A DNA stretch of 52,760 bases, from positions 1-52,760 of the forward strand of contig WRBW01000003.1 of NCBI GenBank assembly GCA_009784345.1, in the 5' to 3' direction. The notes beneath the pieces were generated by a model. The model saw only the letters and a program-made list of their open reading frames with translations, was not told the DNA's origin and made no database searches. Both the position numbers and the translations under genes were made by a program. The stretch's first letter is position 1, and each line of letters begins with the position of its first letter. Of the stretch, positions 39,492 to 48,166 are shown in pieces. The DNA comes from Coriobacteriia bacterium (GTDB lineage Bacteria; Actinomycetota; Coriobacteriia; WRKU01; WQUG01).

Positions 39492-39568
39492 CTTTCATCT
39501 TTCTTTAAGGTTTTTTTCATCTTTCTTTCATCTTTTTTTAAGCTTTCTTTCATCCTAGATTAATCCTA
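39492..39568 (+). promoter_or_regulatory. Array of 11-bp direct repeats upstream of the adhesin gene
   Basis: Seven contiguous 11-bp units start at 39492, 39503, 39514, 39525, 39536, 39547 and 39558. The first six read CTTTCATCTTT, CTTTAAGGTTT, TTTTCATCTTT, CTTTCATCTTT, TTTTAAGCTTT and CTTTCATCCTA; the seventh is degenerate. One unit per helical turn is the mark of OmpR/PhoB-family response regulator sites. The last unit covers the -35 position of a TATGAT promoter. The same unit, in the same phase, stands upstream of comF. Confidence 0.65.
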
Positions 39569-39591
39569 GGTAAAAGTCCTTCCCTTATGAT
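39563..39591 (+). promoter_or_regulatory. Promoter of the adhesin gene
   Basis: TATGAT at 39586-39591 is a good -10. The -35 slot (39563-39568, ATCCTA) is poor and is filled by the last 11-bp repeat, which fits activator-dependent transcription. Start of transcription would be near 39598, which excludes the earlier ATG at 39601 as a useful start. Confidence 0.55.
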
Positions 39592-39648
39592 TCCTTTCAC
39601 ATGCCCGACAGAACCTGCGCCCAGAATGCACAGCAGAAAGGAACAGTC

Positions 39649-42600
39649 ATGTCCTTCATCATGAAACGTATTGCTGCAAAAGAAGGCATTGCCCTGGTGC
39701 TCATCGCCACCTTCATAGTGAGCATGCTTGCCTCGGCTGCACTGCCCCAGCGTGCAGATGCCGCCGTTCCTCCCGCGACGCGAGCCTTTGCCACGCAAAG
39801 CGGACATACGGGACCCATCGTGCATAGCTCTGGCACGCTGCCTGCCTACTGCCTTGATCATGGCGCAGCCTCCCCCAATGGCAGGACGCTGACAAGGGGA
39901 GCCAAGCTTTCTCGTGCTACGGGTAGTGTCGAGCAGTCCATTTCGAAGGCCATTGATCTAGGTCCACAAAACCTGAGCAGCAGAACTACCATTAACGGTG
40001 TCAGCTTGAGTAATCTCGAGTGGCGCATGGCGACGCAACTTGCCATCTTTCGTCTGCAGGGTGAGAGCCTTCTCTACAGCAGAAATACCAATCACTGGAG
40101 GGCCTCCACCTGGATTGTGAACCAGGCGACGAGCACCAGTCGCGTTCAGCTCAACCGCTACTGGATCTACCGTCCACCTGCAGGAAGCGGCATTCAAAGG
40201 ATGACCTTTTCCTGGGGCGACCCCCTCACGTCTCGCATTCGCGTACAAAAAACAGATGCGACATCTGGAGCGCTCCTCGCTGGGGCAAGCTTCGGGATAT
40301 GGTCAAACTCCTCCGCTGCTGCTGCGGGAAACACGGGCGCTGCAAGCTTCATAGGACGGGCAAGTTCAGATGCAAGCGGGCAGGCGTGGTGGTATCGCAT
40401 CCCTGTTGGCACAACTTACTATGTCAGAGAGCTTGCTCCACCTGCTGGCTATACCCTCAATACCGCCGTGCTGAGCGTCACCCCGGTGCTGGGAGACGAC
40501 TCTGAAGCGGCACAGGGCAGCCTTCCCCAGTACCTTGCGGGGACTATCGCAAATCAGCGTGCCGCCATTCACAGGATTGAGCTGACTAAAGAGTCGGTGT
40601 CGCCTGGGAGCCAGATCAGTGCTGAAGCCGTGCGGGGTAACCCCGCCTACCAACTGTCAGGAGCACAGTATGGCGTATGGACCGACAGGGCAGCGGCAGA
40701 CAGCAGAAACCTTAATCACCCCTCGATTGTTGGGCGGATGACGACAGACAGTCAGGGCCGAGCCTCGCTGTCAGGGCTGCTGCCAGGTACTTATTTTGTT
40801 CGAGAGTTCATACCGCCGGCTGGTCATGCCCTTGACTTGCAGACGCACAGCGTCACCTTGAGCGCCCTTGCTGGTGGCAGCAGTTTCACCGGCAGGGTCA
40901 GTTCTCAAGATGCGCGTCGCTATGGTGGCAACCTGGTCATTCAGAAAGTTGATGGTGAAACGGGTCTGGCGCAAGCACGTCCCGGTACGAGTCTCGCGGG
41001 GGCAGAATTCGAGATCAGATGGCCTGACCAGCAAGCACCAAGCGGCTGGACAACCCAAACGGTCAGTACCAACGCTGCGGGACGAGCAGTATATCAAGCA
41101 ACAGGGCCGTCAGCGCCCGGGATTCCGATTGGGAACTTTCAAATAAGAGAAACGAAGGCGCCACCGGGCTACCTCATTAGTCCTGAGTATAGCAATTGGA
41201 GAAGCTTCCAGGTGTCAGATTCTCCTGCTGCAGATAGGCCCCCTGAAATAGCCTTGTCTGCCCTGCTTTCCCCCATTGAGGAGCCCATCATAAGGGGAGA
41301 CCTTTCCCTTTTCAAATATGGCAGCGTGAGCGACCAAGGTGTTGAAACGAGTTTCGCCCTTGAACATATCCGCTTTGACCTTATTGACAACATGCCTTTG
41401 GGTGGTGATGGAAGACCCAATCCGCGCTTCGGACAGATTGTTGGAACTCTTTTCACTGACGAAGAAGGCAGAGCAAGCACCCGCGACCTGATACCTGATA
41501 GTGCCAGCTGGGGCAAGACAGATTACCGCAGTGGCTACCTTGAATATGGCGACTACATCTTAAGTGAAGATGCATCAACGACACCGATAGGTCTTCAGGC
41601 TGCAGATGACATGAGCTTCTCTATCACGGAAAACGGAGTTGAGCTGCACTACCTTATCTGCAATAAAGAAATCACGGCTTACTTGAGTATCGTCAAGCGC
41701 GATAGCGAGACCCTCAATACCATTGCCGTGAGCGGAACACGCTTTGACCTACTTAATTCAAACAAGGACGTCATAAGTCGCCTCACTACCGATGAGACCG
41801 GTCACGTACACCTGCCCGAAGTGCTCAAGCATGGCAACTACTATCTTCAGGAAGTACAGGCGCCGGACCGCTACCTCCTGCATACCGAGCCCATAGCCTT
41901 TAGCGTGGACAAAATTAGGGGGCTCGATAATCCCATCGTCATATGCGTCGACAACGACCCCGCAAAAGCAGCTCTTCGCGTTGTCAAAACTGACAGCATA
42001 ACAGCAACAGCCGTACCCGATACGGTCTTTGAAGTCAGAGCTAAAGATGATGTTGTAACCGGCGACGGAACCCTGCGCCTTGCCGCAGGAGAGCTTGCCG
42101 ACATTATCAGTACTGACGCAAGCGGCATTGCCGAAAGCATCCCCCTTTATCTGGGAAGCTACGAGATGCGCGAAGTAAAGACGACGCCTCATTACTTGCT
42201 CAACACGACCGTTTTTGACGTCAAGCTAGAGTACCAGGACCAAAACACAGCTCTTGTCTGGACTGAGGTCCCGGTACAAAATGAGCCCGTGCAGATCAGT
42301 TGCGAGATTGAAAAGCGCACGATATCCATTAGCTCTGCAGCCTATCGCTCTGGCGCAGGAGACGAGGTGCAGATTGATAATAGCGCGCAGGGCAGCAAAG
42401 AGCTCTATCGCTACGACCTCGATTTTTGGTCGACTTCGAACGACTGGGCAGATGAATTCGTTGTTTTTGACGCCTTAGAGGGAGTAGGTGCAGACCAGAT
42501 TCGCTTGCACGAATTGTGGACTCCTATCGTGAAGGGAGACACAAATGGACTTTACAACCTGTGGTATCAGACCAATCTGGCGAGCCAGGAGGTGACGCAG

Positions 42601-43263
42601 AGCTCTGTCAAGGCTGCTTCAAAGGACCTCTTTAACCCTGACAATCCTGAAGCAATCATGCGTTTTGAAAACCACGGCTGGGTACTGTGGTCAGAAGATC
42701 TTGATGCGAGTACGCGCATGCATTTCAAGGTCGATGACCTCAATCTTTCAGAGGGTGAGCACATTACAGGCCTCAAGCTGGAATTTGGACGGGTCGAGAA
42801 AGGCTTTACGAGCCTTGACGATTCCGGGGATTTGGCGCCTTTGAGCTATCTCGTGTACTGTCCGCGTCCCCTACCCAAATATGATGACACGGGTGCTGAA
42901 GTCATCATTTACAACTCGGCAAGCTCCCACATAACCCGCAACATTGTCCTCTTTGATGATGCCGCAGATACCGTCGAGACGAGACTTGTCGAAAGCTTCA
43001 ACTTAGAGCCAGCAATCCAGCCACAGCAAGAACAGCGTTTTGGCGAACGCTTGGTAGAAAACGACGCCTACCCTCGGGGTGACAAAGGCTATGGTAGCCA
43101 ACTCATTGACCCGAATCTGCAACACCGCATCACTGCCCACGGGCCTGCGACCCATGACCTCTTTGATGCTGGATTCTGGTTCGCCTTAGCAGCCGCATCA
43201 GCTTTTGGCGTGCTTGCCTGTCTGCTCGAGATGTATCTACGAAAAAGAGAGGAGGGTCAGTAG
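39649..43263 (+). CDS. Thioester-domain and Cna_B-repeat surface adhesin without LPXTG
   Basis: 1204 residues. Signal peptide ends near PQRADA. The N-terminal domain (about 30-190) carries a Cys in AYCLDHGA and the motif WRMATQLAIF; these are the Cys and Gln of the internal thioester (TQXA) class of adhesins. At least six Cna_B/SpaA-type repeats follow, each starting with a Lys such as RVQKTDATSGALLAGASF, SIVKRDSETL or RVVKTDSITA. Their partner Glu lies in VRELAPPAGY, VREFIPPAG, IRETKAPPGY, LQEVQAPDRY and MREVKTTPHY. A further beta-rich part precedes a single transmembrane helix (FWFALAAASAFGVLACLLEM) and a short basic tail. No LPXTG lies before it. Start at 39649 behind AAAGGAACAGTC. Confidence 0.9.
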   Translation: MSFIMKRIAAKEGIALVLIATFIVSMLASAALPQRADAAVPPATRAFATQSGHTGPIVHSSGTLPAYCLDHGAASPNGRTLTRGAKLSRATGSVEQSISKAIDLGPQNLSSRTTINGVSLSNLEWRMATQLAIFRLQGESLLYSRNTNHWRASTWIVNQATSTSRVQLNRYWIYRPPAGSGIQRMTFSWGDPLTSRIRVQKTDATSGALLAGASFGIWSNSSAAAAGNTGAASFIGRASSDASGQAWWYRIPVGTTYYVRELAPPAGYTLNTAVLSVTPVLGDDSEAAQGSLPQYLAGTIANQRAAIHRIELTKESVSPGSQISAEAVRGNPAYQLSGAQYGVWTDRAAADSRNLNHPSIVGRMTTDSQGRASLSGLLPGTYFVREFIPPAGHALDLQTHSVTLSALAGGSSFTGRVSSQDARRYGGNLVIQKVDGETGLAQARPGTSLAGAEFEIRWPDQQAPSGWTTQTVSTNAAGRAVYQATGPSAPGIPIGNFQIRETKAPPGYLISPEYSNWRSFQVSDSPAADRPPEIALSALLSPIEEPIIRGDLSLFKYGSVSDQGVETSFALEHIRFDLIDNMPLGGDGRPNPRFGQIVGTLFTDEEGRASTRDLIPDSASWGKTDYRSGYLEYGDYILSEDASTTPIGLQAADDMSFSITENGVELHYLICNKEITAYLSIVKRDSETLNTIAVSGTRFDLLNSNKDVISRLTTDETGHVHLPEVLKHGNYYLQEVQAPDRYLLHTEPIAFSVDKIRGLDNPIVICVDNDPAKAALRVVKTDSITATAVPDTVFEVRAKDDVVTGDGTLRLAAGELADIISTDASGIAESIPLYLGSYEMREVKTTPHYLLNTTVFDVKLEYQDQNTALVWTEVPVQNEPVQISCEIEKRTISISSAAYRSGAGDEVQIDNSAQGSKELYRYDLDFWSTSNDWADEFVVFDALEGVGADQIRLHELWTPIVKGDTNGLYNLWYQTNLASQEVTQSSVKAASKDLFNPDNPEAIMRFENHGWVLWSEDLDASTRMHFKVDDLNLSEGEHITGLKLEFGRVEKGFTSLDDSGDLAPLSYLVYCPRPLPKYDDTGAEVIIYNSASSHITRNIVLFDDAADTVETRLVESFNLEPAIQPQQEQRFGERLVENDAYPRGDKGYGSQLIDPNLQHRITAHGPATHDLFDAGFWFALAAASAFGVLACLLEMYLRKREEGQ

Positions 43264-47357: not shown

Positions 47358-47401
47358 CTTTAAGCTTTCTTTCACCTTGAGTTAAGGATCCTTTAAGGGT
47401 C
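47358..47401 (+). promoter_or_regulatory. Array of 11-bp direct repeats upstream of comF
   Basis: Four contiguous units, CTTTAAGCTTT (47358), CTTTCACCTTG (47369), AGTTAAGGATC (47380) and CTTTAAGGGTC (47391), match the repeat before the adhesin gene. CTTTAAGCTTT followed by CTTTCA occurs almost identically at 39536-39552. The third unit ends at the -35 position relative to CATACT, as the last unit does at the adhesin promoter. Confidence 0.65.
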
Positions 47402-47413
47402 AGCTGCCATACT
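47385..47413 (+). promoter_or_regulatory. comF promoter candidate
   Basis: CATACT at 47408-47413 could serve as -10, with the 17-bp spacer and -35 slot occupied by the 11-bp repeats. The -35 (AGGATC) is poor, so an activator would be needed. The comF ribosome site GAGGTGAT lies a few bases downstream of the expected start. Confidence 0.45.
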
Positions 47414-47431
47414 GCTTGTGAGGTGATAAAA

Positions 47432-48166
47432 ATGAAGCTCCAGACACAGCTCTTGCAGGCTCCGATTCTCAGCAGTATGAAGGATATACTGGGGGAAATT
47501 GTTGCTCCGACTCGCTGCGCCGGCTGCGAGCGCCAGGGCGCAGTCTTCTGTCCGCACTGCATGGCATCACTGCCCTACCTTTACCTTCAGCACCAGGCTT
47601 GCCCAAAGTGTGCCGGTCCCTATGGTGCGCTGACCTGCACGGAATGTTGGGAAGTAAGTTACAGCTTTAGCCATGCCTTGGCACTGAGCCTGCTTGACGG
47701 CCCACTTGCCCGCGCCATCGTCATCTACAAGGACGGAAATGAGCGGAGGCTGGCTCGCTGCTTTGGAGCTCTGCTGGCGGAGTGCGTCCAAACCACCTGG
47801 TCTGAGTGGCTCGACCCTGATTGTCAAATCAGCTGGATTCCTGCTACGGCTGCTGCTGTTCGAAGGCGTGGCTTTGACCACGGAGAACTGCTTGCTTACG
47901 CCCTATCAAAGCAGCTTAACATTGCGGCACTCCCCCTCTTGTCGCGACCACGCGCACGCGACCAAAGAGGTTTGTCGCGCAAGCAGCGCATGAAGGGGTT
48001 CAAGGAATTTACGGTACAGCCACAAAAAAATAAGCAAGACCTGCACAAGGTCTTGCTTATTGATGATGTCTTTACCACCGGTGCCACCTTAGAAGCAGCA
48101 AGCCTAGCTTTGCTCGAAAATGGTGCTGCAGAAGTTCGGGTCGCTGTATTAGGCCGCGCCTGGTAG
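47432..48166 (+). CDS. comF: ComF family protein (amidophosphoribosyltransferase-like)
   Basis: 244 residues. An N-terminal zinc finger with CAGCERQGAVFCPHC and, later, CPKC and CTEC cysteine pairs. A C-terminal phosphoribosyltransferase fold has SWIPATAAAVRRRGFDH and the PRPP loop VLLIDDVFTTGAT. ComF/ComFC is needed in natural transformation, acting with the helicase ComFA on incoming single strands; no comFA is seen here. The ATG at 47432 follows GAGGTGATAAAA. It is alone on the plus strand between an RNA and mtnA. The dispersed word (47779) encodes AECVQ. Confidence 0.92.
   Translation: MKLQTQLLQAPILSSMKDILGEIVAPTRCAGCERQGAVFCPHCMASLPYLYLQHQACPKCAGPYGALTCTECWEVSYSFSHALALSLLDGPLARAIVIYKDGNERRLARCFGALLAECVQTTWSEWLDPDCQISWIPATAAAVRRRGFDHGELLAYALSKQLNIAALPLLSRPRARDQRGLSRKQRMKGFKEFTVQPQKNKQDLHKVLLIDDVFTTGATLEAASLALLENGAAEVRVAVLGRAW

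Follow-up and report, generated by a model that had tools for sequence, protein, structure and literature searches.

The window, a stretch of 52,760 nucleotides of contig WRBW01000003.1 from a Coriobacteriia bacterium (assembly GCA_009784345.1), encodes a surface adhesin and a ComF-type phosphoribosyltransferase on its forward strand. Each gene is preceded by an array of 11-bp direct repeats and a putative -10 box:

39493..39575, + strand: adhesin array, 8 head-to-tail units of the 11-bp direct repeat
39586..39591, + strand: putative -10 box TATGAT, 10 bp after the last adhesin unit
39601..43263, + strand: surface adhesin with thioester and SpaA domains (PF17802, 2e-61; PF08341, 5e-6); by eye, ATG 39649 is a more likely start than 39601
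47359..47397, + strand: comF array, 4 head-to-tail units of the 11-bp direct repeat
47408..47413, + strand: putative -10 box CATACT, with TGC just 5' of it, 10 bp after the last comF unit
47432..48166, + strand: comF-type phosphoribosyltransferase gene (PF00156; the zinc ribbon PF18912 is below the cut-off); the ATG start was picked by eye from its ribosome-binding site

A preliminary description of this DNA had noted that a 16-mer is common to both arrays, 7.8 kb apart, and had proposed a shared regulon. The 16-mer TTTAAGCTTTCTTTCA is indeed present as exact copies at 39537-39552 and 47359-47374, a separation of 7,822 bp. Allowing up to 3 mismatches, the window contains 5 matches, while 0.45 are expected and none of 100 shuffles had 5 or more. 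In a strict scan of the window for units at pitches of 7-16 bp, a run longer than two units occurred only at a pitch of 11 (six units at 39493); runs of two units were found at 47359 (pitch 11), at 284 (pitch 10), and once on the - strand (pitch 11). The hexamers of the comF units are TTTAAG (47359), TTTCAC (47370), GTTAAG (47381), and TTTAAG (47392).

We did not find a recognizable -35 box at the comF or adhesin promoter: the would-be hexamers, AGGATC and ATCCTA, are unlike the consensus. The preliminary description had a unit ending exactly where the -35 box would end. This needs correction: if the spacer is 17 bp, the end of the 11-bp unit lies 1 bp beyond the would-be -35 box, and the array extends for one more unit, reaching 10 bp before the -10 box. 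We also noticed that the comF leader is very short (positions 47400-47440 of the window), with the expected transcript start about 12 nt 5' of the ATG, near the ribosome-binding site. The comF leader in another genome of the same genus (G001) seems to be similarly short.

The window's own genome (G000; 1.48 Mb in 128 contigs, 85% complete) has 22 matches to TTTAAGCTTTCTTTCA with up to 2 mismatches, versus none for the reversed pattern. A two-unit pattern had 37 matches, versus 2 for the reversed-pattern control, and these cluster into 13 arrays plus a lone match on contig C38, which we dropped as a target because it lacks an array. A relaxed scan of both strands of 145 kb (the surroundings of the arrays and the window) returned the same 13 arrays and no extra ones. 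The spacer between the last unit and the -10 box is 10 bp in 12 of the 13 arrays and 9 bp at comEA. All 75 anchored hexamers have A at position 5, 74 of them have T at position 2, and either A or C occupies position 4 (the form of the last unit is biased because anchoring demanded a GTC-like ending).

We took the target of each array to be the next open reading frame that faces away from it. By Pfam and NCBIfam assignments, seven of the arrays precede a Tad pilus operon (RcpC/CpaB, a ParA-like protein, a T2SSE ATPase, and two T2SSF proteins), the prepilin peptidase, comEA-comEC, yraN-comM-dprA (UPF0102, Mg chelatase, and DprA), recA (RecA-RecX), comF, and the adhesin. Toxin-antitoxin-like genes and DUF1016 nucleases lie behind the other six: three arrays have DUF1016/YhcG nucleases, one has a Gp49-type toxin paired with an HTH antitoxin, one has a BrnA-type antitoxin whose toxin-like partner has only 24 codons, and one has a gene pair without a family match. 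A genome scan for competence and surface genes had been suggested as a check on the shared regulon, and it turned up a common site before comEA-comEC, dprA, comF, and the pilus and recA genes, as in a competence regulon. We are nearly certain that the 13 arrays belong to one regulon, and a single activator probably binds and activates at all of them. As a separate matter, several of the toxin-antitoxin-like and DUF1016 promoters have a long similarity upstream of the array, by eye, like a copied promoter cassette (C1:92968-93060 and C1:97770-97850 in L052; C43:4094 and C43:7491 in L058; C94:2809 in L059).

Strict copies of the units from G000 are absent from 28 relatives, a longer promoter pattern had one match among 58 relatives, and a repeat search on the relatives gave nothing useful, as the units are too different. 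These absences are misleading as to conservation because the units diverge, and patterns specific to each genus revealed the arrays. In the comEA promoters of relatives, the layout is retained while the units drift, and diverged arrays are retained at comF, the adhesin, comEA, dprA, and Tad. When 84,980 named genomes were scanned for the exact sequence, 37 stretches had one match each, scattered across many phyla; we read these as chance, and G000 itself may be absent from that collection.

In genus g3, the unit is GGTAAG, and three units of GGTAAG-N5 had 8 matches versus 1 for the control in G004, 8 versus 1 in G008, and 2 versus 0 in G007. The g3 arrays lie at comEA, Tad, yraN-dprA, and, in G004, also at a Gp49-type toxin, among other sites. 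(We discounted a g3 match inside the prepilin peptidase, in L200 and L201, as it is coding sequence of the opposite strand. The matches at C26:24377 and C5:76822 in G004 and on C32 and C36 in G008 have no target that we could name with confidence.) In genus g2, the unit is TTTAAKC, with 56 matches versus 2 for the control in G003 and 12 versus 1 in G006; elsewhere, this pattern had 4 versus 1 in G001, 0 versus 2 in G002, 0 versus 0 in G005, and 1 versus 1 in G011. The g2 arrays have up to 9 consecutive units at dprA, Tad, and the adhesin, and their targets are comF, a SpaA adhesin, Tad, dprA, comEA, and, in G006, the prepilin peptidase. Specifically, the G006 arrays are at comF, comEA, Tad, the prepilin peptidase, and a TED/SpaA adhesin, with another in the dprA region by the relaxed score. 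By eye, the gene neighborhoods in G003 are as in the window: the adhesin lies between adenylate kinase-like and U32 peptidase-like genes, and comF is beside an mtnA-like gene. Within the window's genus, G001 has an array before comF. Thus both arrays that had been singled out in the window, those of comF and the SpaA adhesin, are present in another genus of the family, which was the conservation check proposed beforehand. Both checks largely support the preliminary interpretation.

We rejected topA and the serS-like and rnd-like genes as g2 targets because a short hydrophobic open reading frame intervenes after the array. These g2 arrays precede a short open reading frame for a hydrophobic peptide of 33-35 residues (L376:530-860, L379:80-420, and L384:490-850; G003 C8, G003 C44, and G006 C5). 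At the C8 and C44 loci of G003, the 5' leader has a fully complementary copy of 14-15 nt about 190 nt downstream, and at G003 C8 and G006 C5 a terminator-like hairpin lies between. We take this to be the layout of Fst/par-like type I toxin-antitoxin loci, which are apparently under competence control in g2. In three genera, an array is followed by a Gp49/HTH toxin-antitoxin pair (G000, L052:8247-8871; G004, L195:1577-2261; G003, L380:2594-2923); the G003 toxin part has shrunk to a short stretch that is fused to the antitoxin. We also noticed, in G001, G003, and G008, a reverse-oriented array that precedes an M23 peptidase-like gene (loci L390:2463-3837, L198 at about 1501, and L382:464-514), which perhaps reflects repression or a divergent transcript.

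For a wider view, we scored the region upstream of comEA for three units followed by 10 bp and a -10 box, against dinucleotide shuffles, in the 19 genomes with a usable upstream region (10 of the 29 genomes fell outside this test, mostly because comEA starts, or its upstream region lies, at the edge of a contig or locus). The score had p ≤ 0.05 in 15 of 19 genomes on the forward strand versus 2 of 19 on the reverse strand, and was not significant in G009, G019, G020, and G023. G000, G001, G004, G008, and G009 were kept out of the held-out set because the score was shaped on their comEA regions; in the 14 held-out genomes, Fisher's p was 8e-15 (a value that relatedness makes too small), versus 0.18 for the opposite strand. 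A motif-free test of periodicity found that a lag of 11 was the best in 10 of 18 comEA regions (Fisher p = 3e-7). The comEA layout can be made out in several more distant families. With the relaxed score, no dprA region (0 of 11) and no Tad region (0 of 12) outside family f1 had an array on the gene's strand, so the wider claim rests on comEA.

We considered other explanations for the arrays. T-rich units that vary within arrays could be chance or low-complexity repeats with no shared function. However, this is already refuted by the control counts, along with the fixed 10-bp gap to the -10 box and the position before com genes in several genera, and we give it essentially no weight. Alternatively, the repeats might be DNA uptake signal sequences or a spread mobile element instead of operators, and the cassette-like copies at the toxin-antitoxin-like and DUF1016 genes would fit. 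But uptake signals come in hundreds of copies, many of them within genes, whereas there are just 13 arrays, which lie before genes and face them at a constant spacing from the -10 box, and lineages differ in their units but share the layout; we consider this very unlikely. We think it just as improbable that the comF and adhesin arrays serve different but related regulators with similar sites. Although the number and order of units differ between arrays, and several winged-helix regulators are encoded, an identical 16-mer is found at both sites, the same units are found at all 13 arrays, and both comF and the adhesin keep their arrays in G003 and G006.

A more serious alternative accepts the regulon but has an OmpR/PhoB-family two-component response regulator as its activator, acting like CiaR of streptococci. 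In the source's account, the CiaR site is NTTAAG-N5-TTTAAG, and the search model places the -10 box ten bp further on (PMC3091779). CiaR boxes therefore share the layout of the arrays and have a nearly identical hexamer, and G000 encodes four OmpR/PhoB-family regulators. The match does not extend to all units: many are TTTCAT, or GGTAAG in g3, and the final G, which never varies in CiaR sites, is often missing. Each CiaR site also has two repeats. The CiaR regulon comprises small RNAs and stress genes, not uptake machinery. Furthermore, none of the four regulators in G000 has a recognition helix that resembles CiaR's VVEVYVSKVRKKL (as G000 is 85% complete, another regulator may have been missed). 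The types found on C28 and C76, which are the ones conserved across genera, keep their recognition helix, with V/I exchanges only, despite the change of the unit from TTTAAG to GGTAAG (this comparison covered 25 of 34 proteins, with 9 dropped, including the C5 regulator). The C12 regulator is probably PhoB, given the pstS-like gene next to it (by eye). Overall, a CiaR-type activator seems possible but unlikely.

Instead, we propose that the activator is a SARP, a class of regulator that the preliminary description did not name. A protein with the BTAD domain of SARPs is encoded in 28 of the 29 genomes, as a single copy in most. In G000, the single gene (C25:7435-9693) adjoins secA-prfB; in G000, G001, G004, and G009, secA and prfB-like genes (names by eye) come right after it. 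The candidate's BTAD domain matches PF03704 (1e-22). An AlphaFold model of its C-terminal part (285 residues) has a pLDDT of 88, and a fold search with the model had AfsR in its initiation complex and EmbR as the top matches (best E = 1.4e-10, about 260 columns), which supports an OmpR-type winged helix before the BTAD domain. By sequence, the winged helix (PF00486) reaches only 0.007, in G001, which is below the cut-off; a sequence search with the candidate also returns AfsR. The recognition helix of the SARP differs between g1/g2 and g3, which parallels the difference between their units.

The arrays also resemble SARP operators. As the portions of the literature cited here describe them, SARP operators such as the afs box of AfsR and the sites of PimR and OtcR are 11-bp direct repeats on one helix face with a poor -35 box; the 3' repeat lies about 8 bp from the -10 box, and the -35 region is overlapped (PMC4393881, PMC10936776). 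The arrays have direct repeats at the same 11-bp pitch and likewise overlap the -35 region, and if the unit is taken as an 8-bp repeat instead of a hexamer, then the usual 10-bp gap to the -10 box becomes 8 bp. In the reports on PimR, it binds CGGCAAG heptamers with 4-bp spacers (PMC5930380, PMC3367932); an operator with three such heptamers resembles the g3 units, as CGGCAAG is one base apart from the CGGTAAG of g3. On the other hand, the SARP targets in this literature are secondary-metabolism genes, while the arrays have up to 9 units and lie before competence, pilus, and adhesin genes.

Some SARP genes themselves have arrays directly upstream: G004 and G008 (in reverse orientation) and G011 (forward, in a strict scan), and, by eye, G007, G009, G010, G012, G013, and G023. 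The g3 array at the SARP gene faces away from the gene and lacks a -10 box at 10 bp, and no array is seen upstream of the SARP gene in the genus of the window. Upstream of SARP genes, a lag of 11 was the best in only 6 of 25 regions (Fisher p = 0.0016), so periodicity there is only suggestive. Given the regulon, we think it quite likely that a SARP is the regulator, with the BTAD protein as the leading candidate.

We propose that a competence regulon has the arrays as its operators. Its activator would have an OmpR-type winged helix, would most likely be the BTAD protein encoded beside secA-prfB, and would bind head to tail along one face of the DNA, with one protomer per 11-bp unit. The bound activator would substitute for the -35 box and recruit RNA polymerase to the -10 box, which lies 10 bp past the last unit. 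This would jointly switch on the genes for DNA uptake (the Tad pilus, the prepilin peptidase, ComEA-ComEC, and ComF) and for processing and recombination (YraN-ComM-DprA and RecA), with the adhesin and several toxin-antitoxin-like genes switched on alongside, and the cells would presumably take up DNA. We put the probability of this proposal as a whole at roughly 0.68. We hold with somewhat less confidence, but still favor, the broader idea that a SARP-family protein is the master activator of competence across the class, coupling uptake to adhesion and to toxin-antitoxin genes via arrays of up to 9 units.

The regulons of ComK, SigX/ComX, and Sxy-CRP include comEA/comEC, comF, dprA, recA, and the prepilin peptidase. 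The arrays precede the same kinds of targets; but the operator differs from ComK, SigX, and CRP-S sites, the regulator probably belongs to another class, and the pilus is of the Tad type instead of the com pilus. A Flp/Tad pilus together with comEA/comEC is also found in Micrococcus luteus, where, according to the portions cited, the Flp pilus is required for transformation (PMC4322843, PMC8467076). An account from January 2026 describes, in the part cited, the switching on of competence in Actinomycetota as unknown, and states that the upstream signals and regulatory nodes in M. luteus are unidentified (PMC12849477). Among articles outside of subscription journals, literature on competence together with Coriobacteriia, Coriobacteriales, Eggerthella, SARP, or BTAD contained no SARP or other regulator of competence for this class, as far as titles and the openings of abstracts show. 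Our analysis supplies a concrete operator together with a list of target genes, and it points to one gene as the candidate regulator. It also ties adhesin and toxin-antitoxin genes to competence. This parallels toxTA of Haemophilus influenzae, which is described, in the source as consulted, as a competence-regulated toxin-antitoxin operon whose toxin is deleted in many strains; similarly, the toxin open reading frames are reduced in G003 and G000. If our proposal is correct, then the role of SARPs would extend from the control of antibiotics, as known in Streptomyces, to DNA uptake.
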